From: Anadara kagoshimensis
Taxonomy: Eukaryota; Mollusca; Bivalvia; Arcoida; Arcidae
Direction: 5' to 3'
DNA: 64,000 bases
NCBI GenBank assembly: GCA_021292105.1
Contig: CM037869.1
Location: 14,006,745-14,070,744 of the forward strand
Part shown: positions 11,299 to 42,556 of the stretch, in pieces
Layout of the letters: every line of letters starts with the position of its first letter
How positions within the stretch are numbered: position 1 is the stretch's first letter
The notes under the pieces: model-generated
What the model saw: only the letters and a program-made list of their open reading frames with translations
Told to the model about the DNA's origin: nothing
Databases searched by the model: none
Translations under genes and position numbers: made by a program

Positions 11299-14200
11299 GT
11301 TTGTCGTAATGCTGGAGGCAATCATTAATGCTACATAAGCACTGACCGACCCCATCGTATTGGTTATACCAAACACAACTCCACCAAAGTTAGGTGTTAT
11401 ATCCATAGCGTTGATTACAAAACCAGAAAATCGGAATTCTCGAAAACCCATACCAGTAATTAATACAACAACAGCTAGGATGGGTTGTGAACAGTCTATA
11501 TAACCTAGTGATAGTAACAGCACAGCCGGAACCACCATTGCTGTAATTGAATAAAAACATGTTTTAAAACATAGTACATACATAATACATAATGTATACC
11601 GACATTACATACACTCAAGATTTTTGTTCCAAACTTACAATTTGGAGTGAAACAATATAATCTTTTCTGAAATAATGTGTATAATAACATTTAACGATTG
11701 AACTGTCTAGGAATGGCGTTTTTAGTGCTATAACTGCCATTGCCGTGCAAAACAAACCGAGTGGTTAGTTTGCTTTGCACGGCGATAGCAGTTACAGCAC
11801 TATAAACGCCATTTCTAGACAGTTCAGTGGTTGTATTTTTGAAAATCTTATTTCGGTATTTTAATCCTAAAAAAATTAAAACACTGTCGAGTAGGACATG
11901 CATTTCAAATCGCTTGAACAGCCAATCAATGACGTCACGCATAAAGCCAAAAGGAAGAGATGAGTAACGTCACGTTAGCAATGGCATTTATACTCTTATA
12001 ACTGCCATCTGGTCTTAAACAAAGTTTAATACATTAAAACATCACAAATGTAAATATACTCCTATAACTGCCACCTGGTCTTAAACAAAGTTTAATACAT
12101 TAAAACATCACAAATGTAAATATATTCATTATAATAATAATAATAATAAATAAAATTTTAATCAGAACATGTTGGCTGATTGCTGATTCAGCAATGAACA
12201 GAACGACATTTAACTGGAAATCGCTAAGCACATACTAAGTATTATGGAATATTTCTCTACAGCGCAAAAGGTTATCGTTACGGGGATCTTATATGTTAAA
12301 TAATTTGTAATAATAGATAATTTTTCTCATATGACTTAATGAAAGTTCACCACTTTTGATATATAAAACATTTATTATGTAAATTAACTATACGTCATAT
12401 CAATAGTGATGTTTTGTGGTATTCGGGATGCGCATAGTACTTTCACGTAAATTCAAATAAGATAACCATTTTTACTTTAGCTCATTTGATTTTCTTTAAA
12501 GAAGTAATCAAAAACAAACATACTTATCCATGTCCGAATCACAATACAAAAGCAAAGTAAAACTTTTGAAGTGACAAGTTAGGTAAGACACGTGAACTTC
12601 ACCCAGGGAAGTGAGACCGGGTGCTCTGGAAGGGTAAACGCCTCCTGTTAAGCTAGCTACACACGCCACGTGTCTAATCAAAATTGTGTGAAAGGAACAT
12701 GTAACTATGAGACGTCAAATATATCCAGGGCAATCGTAGACACAGAGACATCAAATTTATCAACAATACTTTGATAAAAAATTCACAATCACATTGGCTT
12801 CGATAGGATAGTAGATCAATTTTAGGGAAACAAACATACCTGTTGTATTAAATAACTTTCTTGTATTGGTTCTGCTAAGAAATCGATTTATAACAAAATC
12901 TGATAATCTTCCACTGATCAGTATTGCTGCAGCATGTGGAAGTGATGATATAGCCGAGATAAAGCCATTCTGTAATGGAAGATAGTAATTAACAAATACA
13001 AACAATACCGTTCTGTGGCTTGTTAAACATCAAATCTCACAGAAATCTACGGGAAATATTTTTAAGCTCATAGGATCACAAATGATTTGATGAAACGAAA
13101 ACAAAAACATAAATTCAAGATGCATGTTTGTAGAAAAGATGAACGCTTTCATATTTTGTATTTGAGGAAAGAAACAAGGAAAATGCGAACAAAATCATAA
13201 AGTAAGAAAATGTTATGTTAATTACAAATAATCCCCATTTATTAGTGCTTCAAACATATCAACCTGTATTTCTACACACATTGAAAAGTTTTTGTATATA
13301 AAGGATATCTTATAAAAACATACAGACGGGCCAAACCCGGTAGTATGATTTTTCTTAATTATCCCGAGATAACAAATTTTTCGAGAGGGAATATCATAAC
13401 CTTTGTACTTTTATTTGTACCACTATTTAAACAGCATTGAATTTAAAAATTGTAATTTATTGGTTTAGTCTGTGTTTAATAACCGTTTATACCCCAGTTA
13501 TGTCCCTTGGAATTTTTACTCACAGATTTAGGTACTTTATTTATGAACGGATTATTATGAAACTTAATAAAAATAAGTTATTGTAAAAACTTGGGTGAGT
13601 TAAGGTAACAAACAGAACATTATACATTGTTATATATTATTATTGAATGTATGTCGATTTTGTCAATGCAGCAGCAATGTGTGGCGTACATAAAATAGAA
13701 TAAATGGACGCCTATGTCTGCTTTTGATTTAGTGAAATGGCATTATTATTATCGATAAAAGAAAAGAATTAATCATCAAACAAAAATGTACTTACATATT
13801 CAAAATCAAAATGAAATACATCATTTAAATATGTCGGAACATAGGTAGCCATCAAAATATGAGCCCAATCACTACAAACATTTGTCACCATTATTGCATA
13901 CAGCGGAAGTGACGTTGATAAGGACCGCCAAGGTATATCATTCTTGATTTTCTGAAACAGAAAGTAAATAGCAATAAAAAAACAAACATACTAATCCATA
14001 TCCAAATCTAAACCCAGAAGCAAAGTTAAACCTTTGAACTAACAAATCAGGTTCAACACGTGAACCTCCGCCATTGAAGTCAGGACGGATGCTCGAGAAG
14101 GGTGGGTAACTCCTATTTAGTTAGATGCTAGTAGCCTCCCCTTCCACGTATGTAATTAAAATTACGTGAAAAGGAACATTAAGCTATGGGGCGACCTATA

Positions 14201-17200
14201 GTAAATTTGGAATCTTTGGCTTCAACTGAATTTTGGTGTATTTTCTCTCTAATCAGTTTTTAATCTTTCATAACATTTTGGAGACTGAAACGATAGAAAC
14301 AAACCATATGATAGACGAGAAAAATTTGTCAAAAAAATTACATTGCCTCAATGTTATATAATCGTCTCTCGACCTCAAACCAATAAGAAAAAAATTAACC
14401 GAAAAACTGTATCAAAAATACATACTAATCCATGTCATCCAAAGCACACTCTACAGCAAGGTAAAAACTTTGAAACTAACAAATTAGGTTTAACATGTGA
14501 ACGTCCGCCAGGGAAGTGAGAACAGGTACTCCGGAAGGGTAAAAACCTACTGTTTGGCTAGCTACATGGTTCCAGTAAATTATTTTAAAAATACCCAGCT
14601 AGCAACAACATCATTCCCATTATCAATAGATTATATTCATTTTTATGGTCTTATACTTATAGTTTACCTCGGTATTTCTGTTCTCGTTTTCTTGTGTTAT
14701 ATTCTTTGTTTTGTTTATGTACTCCTTTTCCTGCTTTGATATCCACTTTGACTGTGCAGGTGTATCAGTCACGAAGACAAACCAACACAAACACCAGAGT
14801 AGAGTCGAACCACCTACATTTAGAGAATATGATAAATTTTTGCAACTAAAGCACATTTATATTTATCAAGGAACATGTTATTTAGACTTTCCGATTCAAT
14901 TCCATGCCATGACCTACTTAGTAGATTGTTGTGTTTTATGTTTTGTGTTTTAAACAAAATCTTTTAAATAAAAAATACACCGATGAATGTCCAAATTACA
15001 ATCTCAAAGCAAAGTAAAAATCAAAAACAAACATACTTATCCATGTCCCAATCACAATCCAGAAGCAAAGTAAAAACTTTGGAACTGGCAAGTCAGGTTA
15101 GACACGCGAACATCCACCAGGGAAGCGAGGCCGGGTGCTCCGGAAGGGTAAGCGCCTGCGTAGCTAGCTACACTTTGAAACTGACAAAATTTATTAAGTT
15201 ATACATATAAACTTTGACGAAGGAGGTGGCGCCGGGTACATATATTTGAAAACCCATGAGCGACAAATATGGATACACATTATAAGATATGTATATTTTT
15301 AACTACCCACCTGTAACATAGACTATATATGACCAACCGTTAACTTCAATGATCAGTGAACTTTTTGGAAGAAATAGCTTGGTTTGGGCCTTAAAAGCTT
15401 TAAACTTTGTTTAAATAAAAAAATATCAATTGCAATACAAATTTTAATTATTTCTTTTTCTAGTAGTACCTTTAAAATAAAGCAAATGCTAATACGATGC
15501 AAAATTCAAATAGTAATATATTAGCAATCTCCTACAGTTTTAGAAATGAACAAATGCAAAAGTAATATATTGTTCTGTTGGCGCTACCTGTGTATAAGGT
15601 TTATAGGCTTAAATAGCACCGTTTCGTCTTTAGAAAATATCAATAATTACGAAAGAACGTTCTGACAAGGGATTGTCAAATCAAGGGTGAAATTTATTAA
15701 TACATAATACGTAAAGATATTTTTCTTACTACCCACCTGTAATATAGAATATATATGACCAACCATTAACCCTTATATGATCACACATAAGTCCAGATAT
15801 GAAATAAGTTCCAATTGTCCCAAATTCAGATCCTGCAATTAAAAGTAATCACGTGTACAAATCAAAAATGTAAGTATTCCTTAAACTCTTCTATTATACA
15901 AGGATATCGCAAAGTCAGTAGGCAATAATTGTGTATTATTGTCAGAATTATACTATTGTTTAAATTTGCTGCTACTTAAAATTTGAAAATCCCCAAAAAT
16001 TAAGGTATACTCCATCATGGAAAGTATTTCCTTGGCTGATTTTAGTATGATATATTTTTGTCCTTTAGGTTTCTTTTCAACATCTTGGAAAAAAAGTTTT
16101 GGTTTCATAGTTTTGGTCCAAGCACTACTGCGGAATTTTATTCAGAAACGGTCGTCTAGTGCTGTTAAATGTAAAGTGGTATATTATGCAATAGATCACT
16201 TTTTAAGATAGGTCGGCAAGTTTAGTCAAATAAAATTAAAAATATTTGTCCAATATCAGCAATATCAAGAGTTTTATAATCCGTGGTGCCAATATGGCGT
16301 CTTGTCTATTACCATTACTGTTTGTGTTTGTGTCGTCATGTACAATGTTGCCAAGTATGTGTTTATAGTTTAAAACAAACATAGCAACCCAACATGTTCA
16401 ATCATAATCCTAAATTGTAAATATAAACATTAAACTGCAAAGTTTTCACTTTGTTTTGTGATTTTGGTTTGGACATGGGTCAGTATGTTTGTTTTTGATT
16501 GGAATGTTTACATTTTTTATTAAGATGCTTACAATGACTACGTCATTTAAAAAAACATCTACCAAATTCAATGTAATGTAAAATAAAACAATGGTTACTT
16601 TTAAGATCCGTGTGTCTGTAAGATCCGTATATACAATGATTAATTCTATTTTTTTAAAAACATAAAAAATTTGTCAACAGTTGAAGTTTTACATTCAGCG
16701 GTTGCGTATTTTATTTTTTTATGTATTTGTGTCGCCATGTTTTGTTATCTTTCAGCTAGCGGCTATAAATATAGACGAACAATATTGACCTGTCCGCTTG
16801 ACCTTACGTATAGGGAATACAAGTATTAATGTTACATATCACAGTACCCGGGCATTGTATATACAGTAACTGCGAATCTAAACACTACCCATGTACTTGG
16901 TGGGACCTACTATATGAAGATTTCCAATGTAAGGTCAAGCGGACATGTCAATGTTGTTTTCCTATACCAATGTAACATATAAAACCTACCGACAAAGCAA
17001 ATTGATGAAAGCCTTGTCCTTTCATTTGTAGGTGCCCATCGACCAAACACGTACTGGCAACAAATGACAACACCCGCCTGGAAAAATGTGAAATTTAAGT
17101 TATTAACATAGCCTTGTCCTTTCATTTGTAGGTGCCCATCGGCCAAAAACGCACTGGCAACAAATGACAACACCCGTTAAGTTATTAACTTAAAGAATGT

Positions 17201-20200
17201 TTTATTAATCGCTTGTCATGTACATCTTATTATTCTATAATCTACAATATATATGTATAACATTTTGTTTGATATCTGTTTTTAATCGGTAAACTTTTTC
17301 AAAAGAAAATCATGTAATCATGTGAATTCATGTTATTTTTATACAAATATAAAATATAATTTCAACTTAAATAAACACTTCATTTACATCGGTGAGCTGG
17401 AGCCATGCTTTTTGTTGTTCTTCTTAATGTCTTTATTTGGTATTTAAATTCCTTCTCTCGGTCTAAGGAATTATTGATTGCAAAATAGATACTGTAACCA
17501 ACAACTTTTGTTGTGAAAGTTGAACAGAAATAAATTCTTTCTAAACGGAAGATTGACTATTTTTCTTAACCAAATTTTGAATAAATGTCGGTCCATCTTG
17601 AAACGGCCTTGAAAATCAGAATGCCAACTATGATTTTAAATACTATATATATTGGCAAGTATTTGTGCAAATTTTATACTTAATCCACATTTGAAATATT
17701 TTGGTGAAAAATCTATTTTATCCGCTCCACTATAAACTGAAAACATTTCCTAACCAAGCCCGTACAAATTGCATATCTGTTTCAACGGATTTTTATGTAG
17801 ACCGTAGCTGCTTTTAAATTAAAAGTTTTTCTCTGAAAATTGTTTTGTTTTGATATGATTCACTGTCACGTTAAAGTATTTTAACCTTTCTATAGATGTT
17901 CTGTCTCTTAACAATCCTAAATTTGGAGACTATGTGAATGTCATCTATCATGGCGAGCTTGAAATAAAAGACACGACTGATTTCTCAACTTCTGTTTTAT
18001 ATTTAGACTTATACTAAATTATGACGCCCAGGAATGGCTACATTTTAAACATTATGGCAACTGTGATGAATTCAATTTTTTCTATTGTCAACATTCAACA
18101 TTCCTTTTTCATGCAGCATATACCTGCTTCTGCTCATGGTGCATTTGTTTCCCAATTAATAAGCTATGGTAGAGCTTGTTACCACTACTGGGACTTGGTT
18201 CAACGAAGCGAACTGCTTGCAAATAAATTGTTGACCCAGGGATATTGCAAGCTAATCAAGGTCCTCAAAAAGTTTTATGGCCGTCATCACAATATTGTTG
18301 ATAAGATTGATGTCTCTGTGTCCAGGATTGCTCTGAATACATTTGACGTCCCATAGTTCCATGTTCCTTTCACATAATTTGATTACACACGTGACGGGTG
18401 TAGCTAGCTAAACAGGAAGTACTTACCCTTCCGGATCGGAACACCCAGCTTCACTTCCTTGGTGGAAGTTCACGTGTCTAACCTAACTTGTCAGTTGCAA
18501 AGTTTTTACTTTGCTCCACGATTGTGATTCGTACATGGATTATGTTTGTTTATGATTTCTACAGATAGATTTTCAAGACAATTATAACCAAGTATCAACC
18601 CTCACTTGTCTGACACCATGATTGGAACGTATTGCTCTGTGAAACTAGTACAAGACATCAATTCTATGATACGAATTACCGTCAACATTCCAATGAGGCC
18701 CCTTATAACAACTACGAGTATGAAGCTATAGTTAGCTGCTACTGGGATGAGGATAGTCACAACTGCTGCCAATACCGTAGCCACTCCAAACACTCGACGA
18801 GCTCCGTACTTGGTAATCAACACGCTCGTAGGAGTTTGTGCAATTCCATAGGGAAGATAAAATATACTCAAAATATGACCCTGCATCATCCGGTCCCAAA
18901 CGAATGACCCGTCCTGAAAATGATATTAAACTGATAATGGAATTATATCATACATTTAATAAATCACGCGGTACTGATATGCCTATGAGCATGGGCATAG
19001 AAAAGCCGATATGTAAACGTTGAAGTTACCTTTGAAGATGTCTAACATAGTGAACAGCTGTAGAAGCTGGCGATTAAGTAGTATTGTGTGAACTAAACAT
19101 ATAAGAAATATACAGCTTGACCTTTAATTGGTTTGCTCAGATATTTCACAAAAGATTGCCTCTTTCTGGCCTGTTGATACACGTATATGTTCGTGTTTAA
19201 CTATTGAACATATACAAAAGAAAACGGATTTTGTATGTCTGAAATACCTGAATTTCTACCAGGGAAGTGAGACCATGGTCAACACCTTCTGTTTAGGTTA
19301 TCAGAATCAGCGTACGGTAAACAACGCAAGACCATGAAGTCCATTAAATTACATCCACACAGTAACAGAACTGTGTATCTTCATTTGTCGCATCTACTTT
19401 AACTTCAATTTGAATATTGCCATTTGATTATCAAATTACTTAAAACTTAAATTATCAATTCATTTTTAAAAAATAAACACTAAAAAGTGTCTACGATAAA
19501 AGAAGTAAAATAATATTTTCTAAAATATAAACAAACATTTTAGTCTAGTCATTCTACAGTTTGACCTCAAACTAATTGCAACAGAATATATTTTGTTACT
19601 AATATGCTCTCAAATACATGAAATGATTATAGCAAAAAGTCTATCAAAATTTGATAAGGGGAAAACAGTTTTGGAGGAGTTTTAATTTCTTATGGGGAGG
19701 TTTCTATAGACAAGTGAGATAACTCTTGTAAAACAGGTGTAATTCTAGTCCCATTATCATATGTTTTTTTTGCTATTTGAACAAATGTAAAGCAAAGACC
19801 CTGGAATTAATCAATCATAATTGTTTTCATATATACATTTAACACTTCTGAGCTCATTTAAAGTTATATCATCAGCCCATTTTAATTCGGTTGCATTTTA
19901 TTTTTAGTCTGTCACAATTTAATGTTTCTATCAATGAGGAACTAATGACAAAATACTCAGAGTAATGAAGTAGAAGTATAGAAAAGTTGTGTTTTTTAAA
20001 CTGAGATATACTTATTTTATCATTTTTGTGCATAATAAAATATATCGGAGGTTAATAAATATTTTTTCATCTCCTCAACATGCCCTTATTCAGCGTTTTG
20101 CATAAAGCTTTCAACAAAATAATTTCATTCTTTTAATTTCATTTAAATATTTCATTCTAAATTGTCTTAAATGATTTATTTTAAGTCTATATTTAAATTT

Positions 20201-20696
20201 TTCTATCTGATTTCTAGGCTTCATATAGTAGCAGAGAATACTTGGAGTTTTTTGAAAATTTCTGTGTAAAATTTAGAATCAAAATACAGAGTTATCTCTC
20301 TTTTTTATAGACAATGCTATTGGTAACAATAATGAATAAAAACAACATTCCTGAAAACAATCACATAAAAATATTTTCTGTTGCAATTACTTTGAGGTTT
20401 GACCCTATTTTTTCATAGATTGACTTGACTATATGGTGATGCAGTATAAAAAATATTTTGACGTGGTGAAACGAACAGCAAATTTACCTTGTACTCAAAT
20501 TCAACTAAATTTGTAGTTGTTAAACCACAGTTTGACGAGTTGTCGGTGTGTTCATCCGTATGTATGTTTAGTGCGGTATAATTGACCATACAAACTATTG
20601 CCATATTAACGTTGACCCTTAAGGAAAATGCACAATATAATCCAAACGACAATAAAACTGCCATACCAAATCTGGTCGATATCCAAAATGGAGCAG
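11299..20696 (-). CDS. SLC17-family MFS anion transporter, copy A (terminal exon missing)
   Basis: SLC17 proteins (sialin, vesicular glutamate and Na-phosphate transporters) are 12-helix major-facilitator carriers of organic or inorganic anions in plasma or lysosomal/vesicular membranes. Eight exons with AG/GT borders, minus strand: 20488-20696, 18680-18913, 16990-17077, 15737-15832, 14668-14813, 13796-13951, 12840-12969, 11299-11540. They join in frame to about 433 residues with no stop. Diagnostic stretches are LRVNVNMAIVCMVNY (helix 1), MQGHILSIFYLPYGIAQTP, RGLIGMLT, RWAPTNERTRLSSI, IPWRSLSTSLPLYAIMV and the PNFGGVVFGITNTMGS signature. Sequons NYT and NSS lie in loop 1. An upstream exon with the start codon was not found. 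The last exon, present in copy B, is not seen; reading into the intron adds only 16 residues. It may therefore be a pseudogene or use another 3' exon. Substrate cannot be deduced. Confidence 0.78.
11697..11826. repeat. 130-bp near-perfect palindrome
   Basis: Two arms of about 60 bp, ttgaactgtctaggaatggc... and its inverted partner ending ...tctagacagttcag, meet at a few unpaired bases around 11761-11765. It sits in intron 7 of copy A. The word ggcgtttatagtgctgtaac in the arms recurs in weakened form at 11975-12010 and near 22105, so this may be a foldback element. Confidence 0.9.
11987..12124. repeat. Tandem duplication, ~63-bp unit x2
   Basis: Two adjacent copies of a unit containing ataactgccatctggtctt and acattaaaacatcacaaatg, followed by an (AAT)n run at 12130-12155. 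It lies in intron 7 of copy A. Confidence 0.9.
12507..12775 (-). mobile_element. Penelope-like family fragment (in A intron 7)
   Basis: Reverse complement of the family 3' portion: atcaaaaacaaacatactta at the left edge through the ccagggcaatcgtagacac block. It has the same orientation as gene A. A copy also occupies intron 7 of copies B and C, so this insertion may be ancestral to all three. Confidence 0.85.
13972..14200 (-). mobile_element. Penelope-like family fragment (in A intron 5)
   Basis: Diverged 3' portion of the family, same orientation as gene A, starting 21 bp beyond the exon-6 acceptor side. It retains aacaaacatactaatccat, a gtgaacctccgcca variant and the tagttagatgctag region. 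Confidence 0.75.
14412..14575 (-). mobile_element. Penelope-like family fragment (in A intron 5)
   Basis: Second copy in the same intron and orientation. It is short, ending near ggctagctacatgg. Confidence 0.75.
14965..15235 (-). mobile_element. Penelope-like family fragments, nested (in A intron 4)
   Basis: Two family 3' ends are stacked: a short start aatacaccgatgaatgtcc is interrupted at about 15007 by a fuller copy starting atcaaaaacaaacatactt, and remnants of the outer copy reappear after 15170. This indicates one copy inserted into another. Confidence 0.75.
15303..15345 (-). pseudogene. Partial duplicate of copy A exon 4
   Basis: About 43 bp repeats the 3' end of exon 4 with its donor (acccacctgtaacatagact on the plus strand). 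It lies about 390 bp downstream of the real exon in intron 4. It is too short to encode a helix alone. Confidence 0.85.
15905..16215. mobile_element. Half of a foldback/MITE element
   Basis: Matches the left arm of the palindromic element at 30690-31200 (landmarks aaatttgctgctacttaaaa, agtatttccttggctgattt, ttttggtccaagcactactg). The other arm is absent. It lies in intron 3 of copy A. Confidence 0.75.
16372..16502. mobile_element. Penelope-like fragments in inverted tail-to-tail order
   Basis: An antisense stub (aacaaacatagcaacccaac) is followed within about 25 bp by a sense 3' end (aaagttttcactttg through agtatgtttgtttttgatt). Adjacent inverted stubs of the same element fit the rearranged insertions known for Penelope-like elements. 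Confidence 0.7.
17111..17177 (-). pseudogene. Partial duplicate of copy A exon 3
   Basis: About 67 bp repeats the exon-3 sequence encoding the RWAPTNER region (caaatgacaacacccg border on the plus strand). It lies immediately upstream of the true exon in intron 2. It lacks the exon's 3' end and donor. Confidence 0.85.
17885..18563 (+). mobile_element. Penelope-like RT C-terminal fragment (in A intron 2)
   Basis: One of the longer family copies. It translates DVLSLNNPKFGDYVNVIYH and ELEIKDTTDFSTSVLYLDLY, then a frame change, then HIPASAHGAFVSQLISYGRA, LLTQGYCKLIKVLKKFYGRH and a stop at about 18355. These match the C-terminal part of a bivalve RT family that in intact members carries FRYIDDV followed by SxSYLDL. 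The 3' untranslated part carries tagctagctaaacagg, cttcacttccttggtggaag and the terminal tatgtttgttt. It is antisense to gene A. Confidence 0.85.
19235..19300 (-). mobile_element. Tiny Penelope-like fragment
   Basis: Only the ctaccagggaagtgagacca region of the family is recognisable. It lies in intron 1 of copy A. Confidence 0.5.
19557..20406. mobile_element. Nonautonomous DNA transposon with ~35-bp TIRs
   Basis: The left end (ttgacctcaaactaattgca) and the right end, read in reverse complement (aacctcaaagtaattgcaac), are similar inverted repeats over about 35 bp. A second internal pair (atagacaagtgagataactc near 19710; gttatctctcttttttatag near 20290) is also inverted. The interior of about 780 bp is A/T-rich and noncoding. 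It lies in intron 1 of copy A. Exact ends and target duplication are not certain, so the superfamily is unassigned. Confidence 0.7.
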
Positions 20697-20902
20697 CTAT
20701 AAAGGAAACAAAAGAAAAACACTCCTTATATGGAAATTATTGAATGATTTATTCATGCGATTATCTATAACTTAACTTTGTTAACATATGGAAAATATGG
20801 GTAATGACGGATGTTAATAAAGGAAATAAAACAAAACAAATCACTATCTTGTAATTATTGTAAAAAAAACCGGTCAAAATATAAGTAGGTAGTTTTGAAC
20901 AT

Positions 20903-21885: not shown

Positions 21886-21900
21886 CCTTCCTCCCCTTAT

Positions 21901-22299: not shown

Positions 22300-23300
22300 T
22301 ATAATAAAAATTAAATGCAAAATAATAATGTTAATAATAATAATAAAAGATATTTGCATTGATACCATATACATGATGGTCGTAGATTCGTTGTTTAAAA
22401 ATTAAACCTCGTTGATAACTTTAAAATTTGCTGAAATATGGAACATCGTTTTTTAACATTTTGACAGTGTTTTTATACAACGGATGGTGATGGTGATGAC
22501 GCTATTATCATGAACGAAGCTACATTCAATTTTATGTACAAAGAAATAATGAAATTTCTTCATCTGCTCAATTTCTGTTTAAAAATAAATACACAAATAT
22601 TTTGTTGTTAATGCAAAAACATATTGTATGGCTTTCGATCCGTCCGTGCATTAGTCTTAAGAACGCTACTAATTCAATTGTTTGTATAAATGCTACATTT
22701 GTTATTTCTATACAAAGTCTTATTTTTCATCTGGACCCTGTGCATGTCAAGAACCTGTTAAATTTTTCTGATCGGTAATTCACTATTTCCGACTTTATTT
22801 GTATTGAAATAAGTTGTTAAGTGTGTTTGATATTATCTGTTATAAAAATAATTAAATATTTACAAATTAAGCTATTGTGAAAAAATAAATTGTATTTAAC
22901 AAATTAATAGATAGAAATAAAAAATAAAAATGTGTACACAAAAACATCACCTTGATCAATCTTCTGTTTATCTTTGGTATCCATTGCTTGTCAAGATGTT
23001 TGTGTGCAAAAAGACCTTTCTTACAACTCCGGTATTAAATGTATTCCATTTACATTCAATGGGCCTTAACGTGACTGAACTTAGTCGTCAACTCATACTT
23101 TAACCTTGTGTCGAAACTAGTACTATGTTTTAGGTGTGATACTTGTATAAATTAAAGGTAATATTTTACTGTTTTTTTATTTCCAAAGAAAATGTTAGTT
23201 AATAATAATAATCTGATGTTATAAAGATTTTATTTACTAGTATACTTAAAAAGCTTTGTAATTGAAGGAATACACAAACTTCTATTTTGTTAGACTACAT
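22300..23300. other. No gene seen
   Basis: A/T-rich intergenic sequence with short (AAT)n near 22325-22346 and a tggtgatggtgatgacg stretch near 22485. No reading frame, repeat family or RNA gene could be supported. Confidence 0.5.
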
Positions 23301-30689: not shown

Positions 30690-31200
30690 ACAAATATGCT
30701 ATTGTCTAAATTTGCTGCGAGTTGAAATTTGAATTTCTAAAAACTAAGGAATACTCCCTTATGCAAAGTACGAGTATTTCCTTAACTAAATTTGGTAATA
30801 TATATTTTGGTCTTTTGGTAATTTTTTTCATCATCTTAAAAACAATTTTGGTTTCACAATTTTGGTCCAAGCACTACTGAGGAGGTCTTGTATTCCTATA
30901 CGGCCGTATAGTGCTGTAACACATTAACACCGGTATAATATGTAATACAAGTGTTAATTTTGCAACACTATAGGGACGTTTCGGAATACAATTTCTCATC
31001 AGCAGTGCCTACACCAAAATTGTAAAACCAAAATTTCTTTCAAAGGTTTGTAAAAATATCAAAATGATCAATATATATTGAACCGAAGATAGCTAAGGAA
31101 ATACTTTGCATGAGAGAGATTTTGAGAAATTTCAAATTTTAACTAGCGGCAAATTTAGACAATATATTTCTGACAAAACAAAAGTATTGTCTTATGAGTT
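30690..31200. mobile_element. Foldback element with two ~220-bp inverted arms
   Basis: The left arm (aaatttgctgcgagttgaaa ... ttttggtccaagcactactg ... cgtatagtgctgtaac) and right arm (caacactatagggacg ... agtgcctacaccaaaattgt ... ctagcggcaaatttagac) are inverted around 30940. No coding sequence. Half copies lie at 15905-16215, 33655-33965 and 55015-55240. Confidence 0.85.
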
Positions 31201-31265: not shown

Positions 31266-34200
31266 CTCCATTTTGGACATCGACCAGATTGGGTATGGCA
31301 GTTTTAATGTCGTTTGGATTATATTGCACCATTTCCTTAAGGGTCAACGTTAATATGGTGATAATATGCATGGTCAATTATACATCACTGATAGAACAGA
31401 CGGATAGTCACATCAACAACATTTCGTCCAAATGTGGTATGACATCTACCAATTCAGTTAAATTGGACTACAAGGTAACTCTGCAGTTAATTCTACTATA
31501 ATTCTTACACGTCAAAGGCATAAATCAAAAACAAACATACTAACCCATGTCCGAATCACAATCCAGAAGCAAAGTAAAAACTTTGGAACTATTAAGTTAG
31601 GTTAGACACGTGAACTTCCACCAGGGAAGTGAGGCCGGATGTTGCGGAAGGGAAAGCATAAAAATAATATAATAAAAATAAATATATATAATATTTATGA
31701 AGAGATGTTCCTATTATTCCCAAATATCTAAAGTGGGTTTACAATGTACAGTTTTATATTCTTCTTGCAGTTGAATTCAAACCATAAAACATTAAAACAT
31801 TTACTTGGTTTAAGCAATGATTCCAAAAACTCGAAAACACGGAAACAAAATAAGACAAGGTTAACAATATTAATTACCGTATAGCTAATGAAAAACAAAT
31901 ACTGTAAGCGTTATTTAATTCCGTGTGTATTTATTTTTGCGGTATAGGAAATTAAGACATGTCTGCGTAGTTGAATTTTTGCGTTGTTTGAAATATGCGT
32001 TATAACACAATAAGCAAAATATAATTTTCGCTGGGTATTAACTTTTTCGCAAAAGTAACGACCGCGAAAAAAGCGAAAATTAGAACATTATGAAAATAAA
32101 TACGTTGACAGTATGAAAAAAATTTGATAGACCAGAAACACAACTAATTACGAGGGTCGTTCAAAAAGTCTTGTCCCTTCCTGTAAACCGTAAATAAAAC
32201 ACCGTAATTTATTATATTGTCACTTGTCACGGGTGACTGAGTTCATTCCCAAACACGTGGAACATTTTTAGATTATATATGAATTAGTTTTTTCTTGCCA
32301 TATTTTCATCATAACACTCGTTACACTGCTTGGAAAATGACGGACATGACAGGTAAAAACATTATTGAAATGAGAAGCTTCATGAAAGCCTGTGCAAAAC
32401 TCGTTAAATCGCCCAAACAAACATTCATTGAAATGCAAGATGTTTTTGGTGAGCGAAAGCTGTCATATAGGTCCATCTCACGCTAGATACGTAAATTTAA
32501 AAATGGTGTTAACGACATTTCTGATAAGGCCCGTTCTGGAGGACCAAAAACAGCATGCACCAAAGAAAACATTACATAAATTCAAAAACTGGTCAATAGG
32601 GATGGAAGGTTGACTGTTAAACAGATAGCTGAAGTCGTTGGTTTATCAATGGGGGCCGTACATTTCATTCTCAGTAAAAGAAACTAGTCATGAGAAAGAT
32701 TTGTGCTAGATGGATCCCTCATTTGTTGTCAAAAGAGCAAAAGCTCACACGGGTCAAAATGGCTAAAATCTGCTGAAAATATATGGTAATTGTAACAGCA
32801 GGCGTCTGGCTGATATAGTTACAGGTGACGAAACATGGGTATATTACTTTTAGCCACATGGAAAGATAAATAATAAAATATGGCTAACCAGAAAAGGAAA
32901 ACGACCTGAAATTGCAAGGCGCACTCAACGTACAAAGAAAGTTCTTTATGCTATATTTTTCAATAGTAACGACATAGTTGCCCAAATTCCCATCCTTAAA
33001 GGCCAGGGTATCACGAAAAACATTTATAAAAATAAAATTCTTAAGAAATTAAAAAAAAATTATGAAAAGAAAAGACCAAAGTCAGGAATTCGTGGTATTC
33101 GGTTACTCCATGACAATGCTCCTGCTCACAAATTCATGTTGGTGACTGAATTTTTGTACAAGGAACGTGTTGTTGTTTTACCTCATCCACCTTATTCACC
33201 TGATCTTTCACCTTGTGACTTTTATCTCTTTCCTAAACTTAAGAAACACCTTTCTGGTCGTCGATACAGATCTCGTTCATCGCTAGATTCAGCAATTCAT
33301 AAGTTTCTCAATGGTATATCCAAAAAAGAATATGCAAATGTATTTAGAAAATGGATCCAGCGTCTTAAAAAGTGTGTAGCCGTTAAAAGTGATTATTTTG
33401 AAGGAATGAAAATAAAATATCATAAATAAAACGTCTTAATTTGTGTTTTTATTATAAAGAACAAGACTTTTTGAACGACCCTCGTATATAAACTAATAAT
33501 CATACCGTTTATATCTTATTGGCTTCATGATTTATGACGCTTCTAGCATTGCAAAATCAGATGTATTGTAAGCAAAACATTAAATTTAACATACATGTCA
33601 AGCATTCAAACAAAATAATCTGCATATAAGAAATGGGAACCATTTAAAATGTTCAAATAGGTCTATTACATACTAGTATTATACCAATTTTAATTTTACA
33701 ACACTAGACAGAACTCCGGAACAGAATTCCTCATAGTAGTGCCTGGACCCGAGTTGTAAAACCAAAACTAATTTCAAGATGTTTAAAAGATACCCAAAGG
33801 ACCAAAATATATTTATCAAATTAAGCCTAGGAAATACTTTGCATGACGGAGTATACCTTAGATTTTCAGGAATTTCAAATTTTAACTGGTAGCAAATTTA
33901 GACAATTTAGTATATTTTTGACAATAATGCATAATTATTGCCTACTGAGTGTGTGATATCACCGGGGAAACATCCCCCATCTATATAAAATGAAACATTC
34001 ACAGAACGTTGGTGTATCCTCGCATATTTATCAAATAAAACAGATTACAACGGAGAGGCTTAACATTCCATTTGCTTATTTGAAATATCAGTCATAGTCA
34101 TAATTCTTTTTCAGGAAGGACCATTCGTGTGGGACCGGATGATGCAGGGCCACATTTTGAGTATATTTTATCTTCCGTATGGAATTGCCCAAATTCCTAC

Positions 34201-37200
34201 TAGCGTGTTGATTACCAGGTACGGAGCACGTCCAGTTATTGGAATGGCTATGGTAATGGCAGCAGTTGTGAATATCCTGATCCCTGTAGCAGCCCACTAT
34301 AGTTTCATACTGGTAGTTGTTATAAGGGCCCTTATTGGAGTGTTAACGGTAATTCGTCAATTTATCAAATCATAATTGATATTTGTCAATAAAGTGACGT
34401 TTTGTTTATAAACAAGAGCAAGTATAGAAAATGAATGACTGATATAATAAATAAAGTGTAAGAAGGCGTGATTATATACGAATCACGATATGCTATTATT
34501 GGTTATACACATATAAAACTCGACTGTATTTATCAACAATGCGTCATTTTATCTTTGTTGACCCAAACCCAATAATATTCTTAATAAAATTGACGTATAG
34601 AAGGAACAACGTCAATGCCTTTCAATCAGAAACATATAAAGTGGGCCCTGATTTATTAAGAAAGAATCTATTTCTAAAACGATGAACACAAAGTTTTACA
34701 GTTTGTCAGTTAAGAGAGGTTTTTAGTTTAATCATAGCTTAATATAGACACATTTTTGGTTAACTCAGGATTCATTTAAGACAGGTGCTTGTAAACACAT
34801 GACAAAGATATGTTTTCAGTATTTGTCAGCTTTTGCTTACATCGAGTTCTGTAAAGACAAAAAACTACGTTGAAACGTTGATAAGACATGTAACCGCCCT
34901 CCCCCCCAAAAAACTATTAAATTATTCAAAGCTGTTCCATCACATATTCCGCAGCATATAGAATTTAGGCATTATTTATAGCTAAAGGCGATAAAACTAA
35001 GACCTACTTTTTTCTTTGATGCGTTCTAGGTGATGAATGAAGAAATATTTATTTTTAAAACGGTGTTATTTGTCATTACTTTTGCTCATAGTAGGAGTGA
35101 TATAACTTTTACTCCGATCTGTACTTTGCAATGATCATCCACAAAAATTAAAAAGAAATTCAGACGATTTATGATTAAGTTTCATATTTGAACAAACACC
35201 GACATAAAAATACAGATGGCTTTCAAGTATCTCTTTATGGTAAAAATTCTTCATTTTATGTTTAAATTGTATAATATGAATTTACAAACTCATTTACATG
35301 AGTTGCGTTGAGTTTAGTAATGGTGTTTAACATCCCACTCAAGAATATTTCACTTATATCGAGACGTCACAAGCTATAGGCGAAGGTGTTGAAATTTCGC
35401 ATGTGCGTTAGGCTGATGGTATTATACAGCAGGGTTCTTTATCGTTCAAAGCTTTCCGTGACAGGGGACCTCGTTTATTTTAAGTTCCAATCCGAAAGAA
35501 CCATGACTTTTATTTCGTAATACCGAGTGCTTGGCGAAAGAACAATCACTACCCACTTTCAAGTCTTACTTACGGAGCGATCATTTACATGACATAATAA
35601 AATAATATAGTAAAAATAATAAAGTGTACTCGATCAAAAAGCGACATATATGAGGGTTGTTTTATATAACTTATAGACATGTTGTAGGCTGGTGTTTACA
35701 TTTGCTGCCAGTATATATTTGGCCGATGGGCACCTCCAAATGAAAGGACAAGGCTTTCATCAATTTGCTTCGCCGGTATGTATTATAATTTTCATTTAAC
35801 AATAAAAATGCATTATAAACAGGTTTATTACTATAGAGAAAAGGAAAGCTGACAATTAAAATTAAAGACAGCATATGGTTTTGCTTAGGCAACAAATAAA
35901 AAAAATCATTGTTATAATAAAATATTTTGTTGTTTACTCTTTATTGAAATTGGTTCATTAAAATATATTTTAAACAATAAAATTATTATATCAATGGAAT
36001 TTATTTGATTTAGTGATGGAACTATATTTTTGTCGTATAATATACCTCGTTTTGCGACAGTAAAAATCCACGTTGTACTATCTTAACCCTATAAATGAAA
36101 AATAGTTATCCGACCAATGTGATGACTAAAATGTTTCTACAATATTGTTTCTTTCCTTTTCTAGCGAGCAATATACATGCCTCTTCCACTTAAAAGATTT
36201 GTTTCACGGGCGTAGTTACCTAACCAGTTGTTCTCACCCATCCAGAGCAACCGGTATCGCTTCCCCTGTGAAAGTTCGCGCATTTAACCTAATTTGCCAT
36301 TTTTCAAAGTTTTTACTTTGTTTTGGGATTGTTCTTTGGACATGGATTAGTATGTTTGTTTTTGATTGATATGCTTGTTTTGGATCAGTAAGCTGTGGTA
36401 GTACATGTTCCTACTATGGACAGTTAATACATCGAAGAAAGCTACTCATAAATAAATTGTTGACCCAGGGCAACTTAAGCATATCAAGATACTTAAATAA
36501 ATTATGACCGTAATCACAAAAATACTAATAATGATTATACATGTATTTACTTTACTAATAAATACAAATATTACAGAAAATAATTTTACTGAACAAGTAA
36601 ATACCGGCATGATATACATCGCTTGAAGTAGGTAACCTAGGGTCTTTGTTTGAATTTTTGCAACGCGTAAAAACTGTTCAACGTTGTCTTAGGCCGTTTA
36701 TCAAATTTATTTTAGTTTCAGAATTCATTCATCACTACGGTCTTGAATGTGTCCGTTCGATTATTATGGATATTCTAAGAATTTGAATATAATTTACACT
36801 AGGTGGGTCTGATAATATGAAACATCACTTACCTAATTTTTGATGACAATTAACTTCATCTATACAGCGTGATGGTCTTTTTCCAGTTTACATGAGACTC
36901 ATGCATTATTATGTGATTTTTTTAAGTCTATTCCAAAAAAATCATTACATTTAATTACCACTATTGTTCAGCAAAAATTACATACCAAAAATAGATGATA
37001 TTTTAAATGTTTTCATGAAATATTCTTTAGAAATATTGTTGTTTCTTCTTTCTTGTTTTATTCCAATTCTGTCAAAGCATCGATGTAATGAATAACAAGG
37101 AATAATTTTCATCAAGCATAAAAAACAATTAGTTTTATTCAATAAAGCACGTTATACAAGCAATCAAGAACCTCATTTGTTGAAACCAAAGATTTGCAAT

Positions 37201-40200
37201 GGTTGTAGTTTTTGTCGCTTCAAACATTAACTTCTTATTGTTAAGTCTCGTTTTAAAGTGAGCTTTATTCTTAATTTTAGGAGTTGAATTTGGAACAATT
37301 GGTACTTATTTCTTATCTGGACTTATGTGCAATCATATAAGTGTTAATGGTTGGTCATATATATTCTATGTTACAGGTGAGTTAAAAGAAAAATATCTCC
37401 ACGTATCTTATAAATTCAATGTGTACTGATAAATGCCACACCATGATTTCTCAATCCTTTGTCAGAACTTCTTTCGTAATCATTTATATTTTCTGAAGAA
37501 GAAATTAAATCTCTAAACCTTATACATTGGTAGCGCAAAAAGAACAATACAGCCAAACTTGGTTAAAAGCCACCTCTATAAAAAGGCCACCTGCTTATAA
37601 AGGCCAGTAGAATTGTATCCCAATTTTCTTTAGCCATATAGTTTGAATCTGTATATAAAGGACACCTGCCCATAAAGACCACGTTTACTGGTTCCCTTGG
37701 ACAGCCTTTATAGATAGGTTTAACTGTATATTACTTTTACATAGCTATGTTCATTTCTAAAGCATAAAAATATTGCTGATCTATTACTTCAAAATTTGAA
37801 TTTTGAAGAATTAAAATTTGTATTATTTATTTTAACAATTTTCAAGCTCTTTCAAAATAGTTCTTTATTAATTAAATTTTACCATATCATATTGTTTAAA
37901 TATCTTAATCTAGGAGGTTCAACTCTGCTGTGGTGTTTATGCTGGTTTGTCTTCGTGGCTGACACACCTGAACAGTCATGTTGGATATCAAAGCAAGAAA
38001 AGGAATATTTATACACAGCGATAAATACAAGAAGAGGAATCAAGGACAAAAATTTGGAGGTAAACTACCATTAACAAGTAACATAAAGCTATAATGTCAA
38101 TGACAATGATTTTATTATTAAGCACACATATTATATAATAAGGACAACGTTATTTCGTTAACGTTTAGCATACTGACCCAATGCCCACAGTGATAAAACT
38201 GATACCCTAGCCAATACTAGTAATTTTTTCACACCCTGTTCATTTAGCTAGTTAAACAAAAGGTACCTACCCGACCGGAGCACTAGGTTATATATTTCTG
38301 GTAGAAGTGCATTTGCTTAATACATTTCCCCGGTTTCAAGGTTTTAATTTGTGATTTAAACGTTGACTAATATATATTTTTTTAAATTTTAGCTAAAATG
38401 TGTTCCATTTCTCTTTTCAATAATGCAATATTAAAACCTAATTATAAAACAGATCCTACAAGGGTCAAGCAGTTTGAATATTCTCGCGCAAATTCCATAC
38501 AAAAAGCAACTTTCATAAACACTGTGTTGTATTTTTACATTCTGTTTCAGATAAATAAGCATGTTATACCTTGGCGTTCCTTATTTACGTCTCTTCCGCT
38601 TTATGCAATAATGGTGGCAAACATATGCTTTGATTGGTCACACAAACTGATGTTGACATATATATCCACATATTTAAATGATGTGTTTCATTTCGATTTT
38701 GAATACGTAAGTATCTCAGATATGTGTTTTAATGACTAACTTATTCTGCCTTCGTATCTCTTTGATATCTATGTTTGTGGATTGTCCACTGTTGATAGCA
38801 TTACGCTAAGGTAGAGCTTGTTCTTACTACGGGGACTTTTTACAAAGAAGTAGGCTGATTGAAAACAAATTGTTGACCCAGAAATATCGCAAGCTTAGGC
38901 TTATCAAGGCCTTCAAAAAGTTTTATGATTGTCATCACAGTATTGTTGATGTTTCTGTGTCCACGATTGCCATGAATATATTTGACGCCGCATAGTTCCA
39001 TGTTCTTTTCACACAATTTGATTACACACGTGACGGGTGAAGCTAGCTAACCAGTAGCCGCTTGCCTGACTTTCTTGGTGGAACTCACGTGTCTAACCTA
39101 ACTTGTCAGTTCCAAAGTTTTTACTTTGCTTCTAGATTGTGATTTAGTATGTTTGTTTTGATTGCATTTTATTATGAAACTAACTAGTTTTACAGACATC
39201 CTTCTAAGGACGTCATTTCAATGTTGTATATAAGTATGGTTTATATGTATGCAGAATTACCCTGGTAATATTTGACATATAGTTTTACATTCCTTTTATT
39301 GCCAATTTTGATTACTCACATAGGGGCGTAGCTAGCTAAACAAGGAGAACCCGACCTCTTTCTCCGTTGAAAATTTGATGATCACTTTTATTCCAATACG
39401 ACTGTCTGTTACAAAATTAAAACAAATTTTCAAATAATTGTATTTATTATTCCATTCCATTATAGAATGGTTTTATCTCAGCTATATCATCACTTCCACA
39501 TGCTGCAGCAATTTTGATCAGTGGAAGATTATCAGATGTTGTTATTAATCGATTTCTTCTCAGCAGAACCAATACAAGAAAATTATTTAATACAACAGGT
39601 ATAGTAGATCTTGTTCCGACTACGAGAACTTAATTCAATTAAGAAAGCTTCTTACAAAAATAAACTGTTGACGCAAGGAAATTGTAATCCTAGGATTAAC
39701 AAAACCTTAAAAAAGTTTAATGACTGTCATCACAATATTGTTGATAAGTATGGTGTCTCTATATCCACAAATTATCGAGTATATATTTGATATCCAAAGT
39801 TCCATGGTCTATTCTTTCTTAACTGTGACAAGAAACGTGACGAGTGTACCTAAACAGGAGGTTCTTTTTATTCTGGAGCACTAAGCGTCACCTCAGTGAT
39901 GGAAGGTCCCGGGTTTAACTTAATTTGCCAGTTACTTTGCTTTTAGATTGTGATTTGGACATGGATTGGTATTTTTGTTTATGTTTTACCGCACTTTAGC
40001 GCACGTCTGAATCTCTTTTGTTTGGAGAAAGAGTTTATTACCACATGCAAATTTTAATGTTTTCCCGTAAATATGGCTTTCTTATATAGTAGTGAGTAAG
40101 TGAGTGAGTGAATTACTGTTAAAAGCCGCATCATCAATATTGCAGCTATTCGCGGCTAGAAAAAGTAAAGGATACAATAGTATCAATAACACAAACTATT

Positions 40201-42556
40201 AAAATGTAAAACTTAAAATAACAACAACAAAAAACAATTATATTTTATTATACAAGTTAATTTCCCGAAGGAAGTTTGAAATTTGATGTCCACTGAAATT
40301 ACTAAAAAGATCTTGCATTGATATTGCTGAATAAAAAGTGTCCCTTGTAGGTGCAAAGTCAACACAATCGAAATCCAGCAAAATGTGCTAGAGAAATTGT
40401 TGATCTTGAGAAGGGATACACTGGGAGGTTGTTCTCCTTTTAATATAAATGAATGTGTAAAATAACTATGACCGATTCTACAGCGCCGAAGAACAATACT
40501 TTCATGCGTATTGTACTGGGATAAAGGTGTAAATCCAAGACATGACTGAATTGAAAATAATTTATTATGTTCTTGACTATCCCAATGATTCGACCATTGA
40601 TCATTGATATAATTGCATATCAATGGTTTCAAATTATTATGCGGAATTAAGCAAGCTAATATATTTTTTTAGACAATGCTGCTTTAGCAGCTGAATCGGC
40701 TTTTGTGTTGCCTCTAATGCCAACATGGCTAGGTAGCAACAATAATATTTTTTTTTTATTAAAATCTGAAACTGCATATGTAACTGAACTATGCAATTCC
40801 AGAATTTCACAAATTAGAGGGTGATCAAATTTTCTGCTCTTCATTGCCCGAAGGACAAAAAAAGAGTTAGAGCATATAATAAAATTGTTATGGGGCGATT
40901 TTGAATTAAACTGTAAAGCAAGCAATATTGCTTTAGACTCAGCTGAGAATATGGAGCTGTCATTTGGAAGGCGAATACTTATTGTTTCGTCTCCAATAAC
41001 TGCGATCGCTGATAGGCTGTGTTTTATTAAGAGATTCAATAAACGTTTTACAGTTTATCGTACTTCTCTTTCAACTGAGGGTTATGCTATATCGATTTTC
41101 AAATTAGATAAAGAATAATCTTATTCTCTTTTTTCTCTTTTTCCTGATTGTGCACCTTTTCTGACATTACACATAAAAGTTACAATTTGTTGCTCCTTTA
41201 AGGTATTTCCTCCACACCAAATACGTGTACATACTGGTGACTAATTAAACATTTATTGAATTAAAAGAAATCCAACTAAAATGTTCAATGATATGGTAGA
41301 CTTGTCTATAATGAGTATACATTACATGGCTGGTTGGCTTGATTTATTGATCCTACTTATATGTAGGACTTTAGTATACGATATTGGTAAAACTGTATTT
41401 GACAAAATAGCAAGGATTACTTCCCTTACCTCATACTCAACTATCCCGTCTGCAATAATCTTTAAATTCGAAACAACGACAGTTTCTTCCCTTAAATATT
41501 TCTGGCCATACAGCACATTATTTTAGGTAAAAAGTAATTTACCACCTAAACATCGTCAAATTCATTAAAACTTGGCATGAACCTTAAGAGTATTCTTAAA
41601 ATGACAACAAATGATAGTTGTAATATTAGTACTAGTAAATAAAAAATGAAAACGCATTGTTACATCACAAGATTGCAAATTAAAGTAGATTCTTAGAACA
41701 GACAATAGTGTACATACATCTACCATTTTTAAAAAAAAAAACATGTTCTTATTCAATTACAGCAATGGTGGTTCCGGCTGTTTTGTTAATAGTACTAGCT
41801 TATATAGACTGTTCACAGCCCACCCTAGCTGTTGCTATATTAATTACTGGTATGGCTTTAAGAGGATTCCGATTTTCTGGTTTTACAATTAATGCTGTAG
41901 ATATAGCACCTAATTTTGGTGGAGTTGTGTTTGGTATAACAAATGCAATGGGATCGTTAAGTGCTTATGCAACATTGATGGTTGCTTCCAGCCTCACAAC
42001 AAACGTAAGTTATGAAACTAATGAAAAATTAAAAGAAAAGTAAAACTAATTGGTTGCTGTTATTTTGTAAAATTTAAAAACAAATAATTCTATTTGCTTT
42101 TGTTCCAAGCATTTCAATTGGTCTGATGATTCACCTATTAAAACGCATACATTTTCAAAAAACTTTATTTTACAAAACAATGAACTACACTAATCTAAAT
42201 TGTTAACAATATAAGGCTGAAGGTTACAACTTAAAAATATAGACTTGTATTAAATTATCATTTTGTTAATTTTGTAACATTTCATTTGGTATAGTTTTGG
42301 TTGAATTATATTTTCATAATTGTGATGACCATTCTATTGATAAGTATATTTTTGCATATTTTTTATGTTTCAGCTTTCAAGAGAAGAATGGAAGACCGTA
42401 TTTTTAATAACATCCGCTATAGAAATTTTTGGTTCTTTATTTTATTTGATGTTCGCAAGTGCTGATGTTCAGTCATGGAATGATACACACAATGTCGAAA
42501 TTAATGCGGAAGCACCTAAAGCAGCCTCAGACATTAAAACAACTCATATAGAGTAA
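31266..42556 (+). CDS. SLC17-family MFS anion transporter, copy B
   Basis: Nine exons with AG/GT borders: 31266-31474, 34115-34348, 35688-35775, 37281-37376, 37914-38059, 38551-38706, 39466-39598, 41763-42004, 42374-42556 (TAA at 42554). They splice in frame to about 495 residues without a stop, close to the usual 480-550 of SLC17 proteins; an upstream exon with the initiator Met is still needed or Met at about 31295 is used. Visible features: TSTRLGMAVLMSFGLYC and LRVNVNMVIICMVNY (helix 1, with the family LRVN motif), loop-1 sequons NYT and NIS, MQGHILSIFYLPYGIAQIP, RALIGVLT, GRWAPPNERTRL, WRSLFTSLPLYAIMVANIC, PHAAAILISGRLSD, PNFGGVVFGITNAMGSLSAY and the terminal EEWKTVFLITSAIEIFG helix. Family role: proton- or sodium-coupled anion transport. 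Introns hold a mariner, foldback, SINE and several Penelope-like copies. Confidence 0.87.
31525..31655 (-). mobile_element. Penelope-like fragment (in B intron 1)
   Basis: Starts atcaaaaacaaacatactaa, 50 bp after the exon-1 donor, and breaks off after aagtgaggccggatgttgcg. It is antisense to gene B. Confidence 0.85.
32151..33484 (+). mobile_element. mariner-type transposon, 1334 bp, perfect TIRs
   Basis: The terminal inverted repeats are identical for 24 bp, beginning cgagggtcgttcaaaaagtc, and TA flanks both sides (32149-32150, 33485-33486). The element occupies intron 1 of copy B. The internal transposase is broken, so it can move only with help in trans. Confidence 0.95.
32337..33429 (+). 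pseudogene. mariner DD34D transposase, disrupted
   Basis: From ATG at 32337 the frame runs MTDMTGKNIIEMRSFMKACA into a helix-turn-helix region, with stops and shifts near 32486, 32573, 32685, 32775 and 32852. The catalytic parts remain readable: TGDETWVYYF (first Asp, about 32825), RLLHDNAPAH (second Asp, about 33112) and YSPDLSPCDFYLFPKLK (third Asp, about 33215). There are 34 residues between the second and third Asp, the mariner spacing. The last 98 codons to the TAA at 33427 are open. Confidence 0.92.
33655..33965. mobile_element. Half foldback element (in B intron 1)
   Basis: Matches the right arm of 30690-31200 (caacactagacagaactccg, agtagtgcctggacc, ggtagcaaatttagac). The left arm is missing. 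Confidence 0.75.
34376..35295. other. Intron 2 of copy B, no further feature seen
   Basis: Unique-looking A/T-rich intron sequence with no coding or repeat signal I can support. Confidence 0.5.
35300..35590 (-). mobile_element. SINE related to the 27.7-kb copy, antisense
   Basis: In reverse complement it reads cgctccgtaagtaagac, ctttcgccaagcactcggta, gaggtcccctgtcacgg, gacgtctcgatataagtgaa and attcttgagtgggatgttaa. The final acgtctcgatata...gaaatattcttga block is shared with the SINE at 27745. The tRNA-like head is missing or unrecognisable. It lies in intron 2 of copy B. Confidence 0.8.
36165..36530 (+). mobile_element. Two Penelope-like fragments (in B intron 3)
   Basis: A 3'-end copy (36165-36372, ending agtatgtttgtttttgattg) is followed by an RT-coding piece (36385-36530: taagctgtggtagtacatgt, aaattgttgacccagggcaa). 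Both have the orientation of gene B. Confidence 0.8.
38238..38350 (+). mobile_element. Penelope-like fragment (in B intron 5)
   Basis: Diverged 3' portion starting near ttagctagttaaacaaaagg. It lacks the last 40 bp of the family. Confidence 0.6.
38790..39170 (+). mobile_element. Penelope-like fragment (in B intron 6)
   Basis: Starts about 85 bp after the exon-6 donor, in the RT C-terminal region (acgctaaggtagagcttgtt, ttcaaaaagttttatgattg), passes through cacacgtgacgggtgaagct and ends tagtatgtttgttttgattg. It has the orientation of gene B and is absent from the shorter intron 6 of copy A. Confidence 0.87.
39235..39365 (+). mobile_element. Penelope-like fragment (in B intron 6)
   Basis: Diverged middle part (accctggtaatatttgac, aggggcgtagctagctaaac). 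The 3' end is missing. Confidence 0.6.
39601..39990 (+). mobile_element. Penelope-like fragment at the exon-7 donor of copy B
   Basis: Similarity to the family (cgctatggtagagcttgttc in other copies; here gtatagtagatcttgttccg) begins within the first bases of intron 7 and runs to ttggtatttttgtttatg. The same copy, at the same position, is present in remnant C (50470-50850, inverted). The 5' splice site is therefore directly followed, or partly formed, by retroelement sequence. Confidence 0.85.
40093..41010 (-). mobile_element. I/Nimb-like LINE 3' fragment with RNase H (in B intron 7)
   Basis: Absent from the otherwise matching inverted sequence at 50260-50460, so its limits are well defined. 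On the minus strand it encodes an RNase H domain: DSSIFSAESKAILLAL (Glu kept), NNFIICSNSFFVLRAM (usual Asp replaced by Asn), LLPSHVGIRGNTKADSAAKA (Asp kept), from about 41000 to 40656. After a shift at about 40650 comes a C-terminal region (PLICNYINDQWSNHWD, RRCRIGHSYFTHSFILKGE). The 3' end is a tcactcactcac-type tail (gtgagtaagtgagtgagtga at 40093). It is 5' truncated and inactive. Confidence 0.85.

Follow-up and report, generated by a model that had tools for sequence, protein, structure and literature searches.

What kind of locus is formed by two SLC17-type transporter genes that stand head to head with the same exons? The question is raised by a stretch of 64,000 nucleotides (C13:14006745–14070744, hereafter the window; positions without a contig name refer to it, negative ones lying ahead of its first base) in an assembly of 1.115 Gb and 36 contigs. 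A first-pass annotation had read the pair, here called A and B, as a divergent inverted duplication of possible fold-back or palindromic origin that could share a central promoter. From the sequence, we consider the locus to be probably a cluster in which sialin-like SLC17 transporter genes of an animal evolve by birth and death, and in which exon E3 of A has undergone gene conversion and B has suffered a deletion.

The gene models themselves are well defined. Coding exons are numbered E1–E10, exon n of the first-pass annotation corresponding to E(n+1). In models built from splice sites, E2–E9 of A run on the minus strand from 20696 down to 11299 and those of B on the plus strand from 31266 to 42004, with lengths of 209, 234, 88, 96, 146, 156, 130/133 and 242 nt in both genes. 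AG and GT flank the exons, the phases match exon for exon and the frames are open, so that the lengths, phases and frames annotated previously were exact. In A, the exons are E2 (20488–20696), E3 (18680–18913), E4 (16990–17077), E5 (15737–15832), E6 (14668–14813), E7 (13796–13951), E8 (12840–12969, 130 nt) and E9 (11299–11540), which is the final exon of A in the window. A partial tandem duplicate of E4 (17106–17174, minus strand) is found without AG directly before and without GT directly after it. In B, they are E2 (31266–31474), E3 (34115–34348), E4 (35688–35775), E5 (37281–37376), E6 (37914–38059), E7 (38551–38706), E8 (39466–39598, 133 nt) and E9 (41763–42004), followed by a terminal E10 of 183 nt (42374–42556, plus strand, ending in TAA) that comprises the final hydrophobic segment, as read by eye, and the C-terminus. 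The proteins are 78.4% identical over 435 residues (BLASTP E 0.0), a coding likeness far beyond chance. At the DNA level, the likeness ends at, or at most about 35 bases from, the exon edges, dispersed repeats excepted, and the introns are unlike in length and repeat content; the one exception is the 96-base exon, where likeness extends some 170 bases into the intron. Two head-to-head SLC17-type genes with identical architecture, similar coding sequence and differing introns are thus borne out. A SINE-like dispersed repeat is found at, e.g., 28520–28757, 12491–12724, 18337–18584 and 55366–55573, the first of these copies having 27 matching stretches in the window, itself counted, and palindromic elements lie at 11693–11832 and 30700–31164.

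Family membership is supported by a major facilitator profile (MFS_1; 153 bits for A and 163 bits for B at a cut-off of 33.4) together with best similarity to SLC17 proteins. The ten PDB sequences matched by B are four of sialin, four of VGLUT and two of the D-galactonate transporter. Human sialin (SLC17A5; PDB 8dwi and 8u3d) is the best solved relative, aligning with residues 1–474 of the 495 in B, numbered without E1 (E 2e-83). VGLUT2/3 belong to the same family (E 1e-73 to 2e-69) and are less similar than sialin, leaving residues 1–67 of B unaligned. The arginines of TM1 and TM4 (R57 and R168 in sialin) are retained in B and in all six long copies known here (A, B, D, F, A2 and B2; see below). 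The same six copies have I, T and Q in place of sialin E171, E175 and H183, and thereby lack the TM4 glutamates of the proton-coupled sialin type. The equivalents of R168, E171 and E175 are all encoded by E3.

Three papers describe R168–E171 and R57–E175 salt bridges in sialin, with E171 and E175 as protonation sites (PMC13207226, PMC11649914, PMC11116495). R47, R126 and E133 of DgoT are described as conserved across the SLC17 family (PMC11649914), and E133 is equated with sialin E175 (PMC11116495); equating R47 and R126 with R57 and R168 is our own reading. If, as stated there, the E175 equivalent is conserved across SLC17 (PMC11649914), its loss here also speaks against a typical SLC17 mechanism, and the residues suggest a coupling mode unlike that of sialin. 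Against this reading counts the residual activity of sialin double mutants as described in one of these papers: in HEK cells, E171A/E175A and E171Q/E175Q lost more than 60% of transport and some remained, while an earlier study is quoted there for no transport (PMC11116495).

Loss of the TM4 glutamates as a trait of A and B alone was rejected, being common among the other SLC17-like fragments read. These were 17 fragments fetched of the 23 matches that cover E3 outside the two clusters described below, from a search with B as query that favours B-like sequences. The E175 equivalent is E in 2 of the 17 and the E171 equivalent in 1, and the R168 equivalent is R in every one. GT directly follows the E175-equivalent codon in 17/17, which makes this exon boundary common to the family in this genome. 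The identical architecture is therefore real for A and B but, at the one boundary examined, not special to the pair. The loss, here and at the E175 position of 15 of the 17 other fragments, marks transporters with testable coupling. A search for literature on expansion of the SLC17A5 gene family in molluscs returned no paper.

A and B have company on C13. In the window and 50 kb on each side, tblastn revealed at least six copies, remnants counted, in the order A (minus), B (plus), C (a minus-strand remnant), D (minus), E (a plus-strand remnant) and F (plus); C lies in the window and D, E and F outside it, and 2,500 bases (64001–66500) are N. The degenerate third copy C (49923–51756, minus strand) consists of an E2-like stretch with a stop (51756–51550), an E8-like stretch (50933–50826) and intron remnants reaching to 49923, and its introns place it nearest to B. 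A first-exon remnant of C at 54415–54451 (minus strand) has lost its ATG and donor, and a second first-exon copy at 58335–58371 (minus strand), in the tandemly duplicated upstream region of C, has kept its ATG and GT donor; the duplication pairs 55201–58233 with 58762–61575 at 82–93%. D and F form collinear homologous arms of the kind expected from a fold-back: blocks of 67673–81127 align with 107686–93934 at 88–96%, introns and flanks included, and D–F is a recent inverted duplication of 13–14 kb, outside the window. In D, single bases are deleted at two exonic sites and the last exon differs by 2 bases at its extreme end, and F has five frame-changing differences by alignment; part of these frame shifts could be sequencing errors.

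The segment also has a counterpart on a second contig, C16. B as a query against its own genome gave 86 matches, including the A–B–C order in reverse on C16 (A2, B2 and C2), and the window from 13705 to 52501 aligns with C16 in collinear blocks of 86–97% identity with several insertions. A2 stops after E7, the duplicate ending at 13705, 91 nt past E7 of A, and its E4 lacks a preceding AG. Among the 55 matches listed for a 1.5-kb probe from the centre (24000–25500), only those at the C13 and C16 loci are full-length; the other 53 are parts of the first 691 bases, a repeat (40 of 1008 candidates scored). An element with inverted ends and stop-broken frames in an intron of B (32150–33485), which we take to be Mariner-like, predates the C16 duplication, as it lies within the block common to C16. 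A satellite spaced at intervals of about 145 bp occurs at −23349 to −15107, around the distant exon of A discussed below, and at C16:21309001–21309860, the outer end of the copy beside C2; it is a possible partner in interchromosomal copying.

The first-pass inventory of eight exons in A and nine in B was right as far as it went, and overlooked a small E1 in both genes. E1 of A (22951–22984, minus strand; 34 nt, 11 codons and 1 nt, donor GTGATG) was revealed by the upstream similarity of A, D and F, and a matching exon is present in D, F and A2. Its terminal G before the GT completes the Ala codon of E2 and fits the E2 phase. Similarity to A E1, with up to 12 mismatches allowed, revealed no E1 in B. 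A splice-phase search placed B E1 at 30335–30365 (plus strand), of which B2 has a longer version (at C16:21348776) with the start context of the other copies. In B, the 5´ part of the exon is replaced and an in-frame ATG stands at the junction (30338–30341, plus strand) of a 4.14-kb deletion, with which the native start codon and the DNA upstream of it are gone. The corresponding segment, C16:21348765–21352903, lacks a counterpart at the junction. It resembles the upstream region of C at 54458–55308, 58378–58756 and 61573–62033, and B 29945–30337 resembles 62427–62038, which directly adjoins the last of these matches; these likenesses show that B lost the segment, as opposed to B2 having gained it. 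B still has a complete frame, open through ten exons from the fused junction ATG to the TAA, although its native start and upstream DNA are lost. B2 retains the 4.14-kb segment, is open through ten exons and keeps its splice sites.

At its other end, A lacks within the window a counterpart to the last exon of B: its half of the window has no significant match to that exon (the best other match has E 0.5). The A strand of the window and its 50-kb flanks, which include 2,500 bases of N, yielded no intact terminal exon. Past E9, the sole candidate for E10 in this stretch of the strand lies at −18403 to −18227, 29.5 kb off with no family exons between; its fifth codon is an in-frame stop, and close to its end it differs by 4 bases. 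Over 1.2 kb, the candidate and its 3´ flank have 79% likeness to D, near the neutral A–D distance (dS 0.23), from which we infer that this distant exon is part of A, although at 95% the exon alone is closer to its counterpart in D than the other A exons are to theirs (84–94%). Without it, the A protein ends ahead of the last hydrophobic segment, and no frame of A in this stretch is open all the way from the start codon to a natural stop. Deletion of the last exon of A relative to the flank of B was considered and dropped, as the match between the two flanks is a dispersed repeat. An extension of the A–B palindrome by 10018–10297 and 6757–7049 against 43552–44125 was also rejected, related sequence being present near −28187 and −3258 as well. 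The repeat is whole at 43552–44125, and its copy in the A flank is split into two halves by a stretch with a LINE-like reverse transcriptase frame (Pfam RVT_1; 7984–9405, minus strand). A second such frame lies at 3268–4794 (plus strand), and a tandem array of 106-bp units occupies 1–2264 and runs on to −296.

The cleanest result concerns E3 of A. Relative to A2, this exon has 24 substitutions in 234 nt (10.3%), all within 18716–18908 (minus strand), compared with 36/2102 (1.7%) in the introns of the whole block; the surrounding intron sequence has 4 substitutions in the 600 nt before the exon and about 11 in the 600 nt after it (24/234 vs 4/600, Fisher p 1.6e-10). At the 24 differing sites, the base of F is found in A at 23 and in A2 at none. 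Changes private to the A lineage are nearly absent from E3 of A (1/233 vs 40/689 in five other shared exons, p 1.4e-4), and E3 of A2 has them at the usual density (14/233, p 0.87). In trees made separately for six exons, E3 groups A with D/F (94%) and the other five group A with A2 (88–100%). The F bases in A and the A-lineage changes lost in its E3 and kept in A2 show that A received sequence from a D/F-like donor; this transfer took place after A and A2 had split and left the introns untouched. No exact donor was found: D differs from A E3 at 13/233 sites and F at 10/234. With exon relationships that conflict with the flanks and a donor-like copy in the genome, the overwriting of E3 is a case of the known process of ectopic gene conversion.

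Other exons give suggestive signals. A permutation of shared runs among A, B, D and F reached the observed value in 0/2000 shuffles for A–F in E3, A–D in E10 and B–F in E9; it shuffles sites along the gene, can be inflated by uneven conservation, and comprised 21 pair tests without correction. D–F (p 0.24) and B–D (p 0.74) gave no such signal, and a significant run shared by A and B was rejected (p 0.067). In E8, A and B are more alike (123/130 identical) than in the other seven exons (p 6.5e-4, uncorrected for picking E8).

The pairwise dN/dS (NG86) among A, B, D and F is 0.27–0.35, a clear indication of long-term coding constraint with omega near 0.3. For A and B, the check proposed by the first-pass annotation gave 0.318 (bootstrap 0.23–0.43), not near 1. 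For the time since the copying to C16, B and B2 differ by 20 non-synonymous and 7 synonymous substitutions (dN/dS 0.83), by itself not distinct from neutral (p 0.64). The non-synonymous rate is lower than the intron rate (20/1142 vs 461/9605, p 2e-7), as is the synonymous rate (p 0.024), and B has probably been constrained since then. Outside E3, A and A2 differ by 10 non-synonymous and 8 synonymous substitutions (dN/dS 0.33, p 0.034), a value that speaks against full neutrality of A. Compared with introns, however, the non-synonymous rate is no lower (p 0.55) and the synonymous rate is higher (p 0.025), leaving the evidence for recent constraint on A in conflict. The earlier conclusion from open exons to persisting constraint may thus be kept for the long term. 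It goes too far for A, with its missing or stop-bearing E10 and a non-synonymous rate not below that of introns, and for B it applies to coding exons that look constrained behind a 5´ end that has been cut away. Open exons and low pairwise dN/dS are no proof that a duplicate is alive.

The reading first proposed, of A and B as a simple fold-back (palindromic) pair, both functional and with a common central regulatory region, accounts for the head-to-head order, the same exons and the dN/dS of 0.318, and the arrangement, centre included, has been kept together on C16. However, A is 89% identical over exons to D/F and 84.5% to B, and the tree splits A/A2, D/F and B/B2 with 100% support each, so that A and B are not mutual nearest relatives; with a dS of 0.37, theirs is an older split than D–F, the recent inverted duplication. 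Homology between A and B comprises exons, dispersed repeats and the intron stretch of about 170 bases, and the intergenic arms are unalignable save for repeats. The start sites of pairs with a bidirectional promoter lie within about 1 kb. The ATGs of A (22984) and B (30335) are 7.35 kb apart, and about 11.5 kb in the C16 copy, a spacing that does not support one central promoter of ordinary short length for both genes. With no intact last exon of A found in the stretch searched and the native 5´ end of B lost, the simple fold-back pair is largely refuted and, in our judgement, very improbable. A could also still be working with an alternative or undetected last exon, A and B being divergently expressed paralogues. 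The absence of a significant match to B E10 in the A half of the window, the lone candidate 29.5 kb away with its early stop, and an A–A2 non-synonymous rate not under that of introns make this doubtful, despite nine open exons with proper splice sites, a long-term dN/dS of 0.32–0.35 and the value of 0.33 between A and A2 outside E3.

Two further alternatives bear on the comparison with C16. The cluster there could be an uncollapsed haplotype of C13, with A/A2 and B/B2 as alleles and not loci. Divergence is merely 2.0% in the centre and 2.4% in the introns of A, values that highly heterozygous marine animals can reach, and several other SLC17-like matches are near pairs on a single contig. Yet both loci are internal to contigs of 59 and 44 Mb, the copy ends at 13705 and near 52501 without alignable continuation in the stretches read and without N, and the introns of B differ by 4.8%; we therefore hold the haplotype reading to be unlikely. 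The conversion of E3 stands whether C16 is a locus or a haplotype. A near-identical SLC17-like exon was also observed on three contigs (L063 on C12, L068 on C3 and L069 on C14), and this and the near pairs on one contig possibly reflect recent dispersal or uncollapsed haplotypes. As for E3, local diversifying selection in place of conversion would fit 14 of the 24 changes being non-synonymous, but the dN/dS of the exon is 0.41, below 1 (p 0.046), A has the F base at 23 of the 24 sites and nearly all A-lineage changes are gone from it. We regard selection as an extremely improbable cause.

In the birth-and-death cluster that we favour, the sequence shows copies in both orientations on C13, D and F as arms of a recent inverted duplication and A and B from an older split. 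A segment that takes in the whole of B, the greater part of A and portions of C is also present on C16. A D/F-like copy overwrote E3 of A after the A/A2 split, and B lost 4.14 kb including its native start. The rearrangements may have been driven by repeats and satellites, and conversion may have been restricted to exons because little other similarity is left between the copies. A would be non-functional, or truncated ahead of the last membrane helix, and the transporter may still be made by B2 and perhaps B. With the substrate arginines kept and both TM4 glutamates gone, the protein is probably a carrier of an organic anion that lacks the proton-coupling path of sialin. It is a more speculative idea, and one we think quite unlikely, that a sialin-like set without the proton glutamates is expanding, dispersing and shuffling exon-sized modules by conversion between inverted, partly dead copies. 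E3 would surely carry a foreign tract in such a scheme, and E8, E9 and E10 suggestively so. If it were true, damaged copies may donate exons to living ones and vary the transport core.

Birth-and-death clusters with ectopic conversion combine duplication, inversion, pseudogenes, dispersal and conversion, and from these the SLC17 cluster shows no essential difference. A closer parallel is the hsp16-1/hsp16-48 pair of Caenorhabditis elegans, a head-to-head module that, in the account of PMC3966223, was duplicated as a unit, like A–B on C16, and underwent conversion between copies in either orientation, as here. The same account notes that conversion is usually reported for exons and that introns diverge faster (PMC3966223). 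The hsp16 module is compact (1.9 kb) with copies 416 bp apart, whereas the SLC17 copies are separated by tens of kb, are rich in repeats and are in part dead. Unlike in hsp16-1/hsp16-48, as described there, the SLC17 tract is confined to one exon between unaffected introns. Head-to-head modules with conversion, mainly exonic, have thus already been described (PMC3966223), and the A–B locus represents ordinary gene-family evolution of a known type, and not a new kind of system, with one very clean tract. In A and A2, it offers an unusually clean natural experiment in which one exon was replaced, the polarity and donor lineage are resolved, and the introns are almost unchanged.
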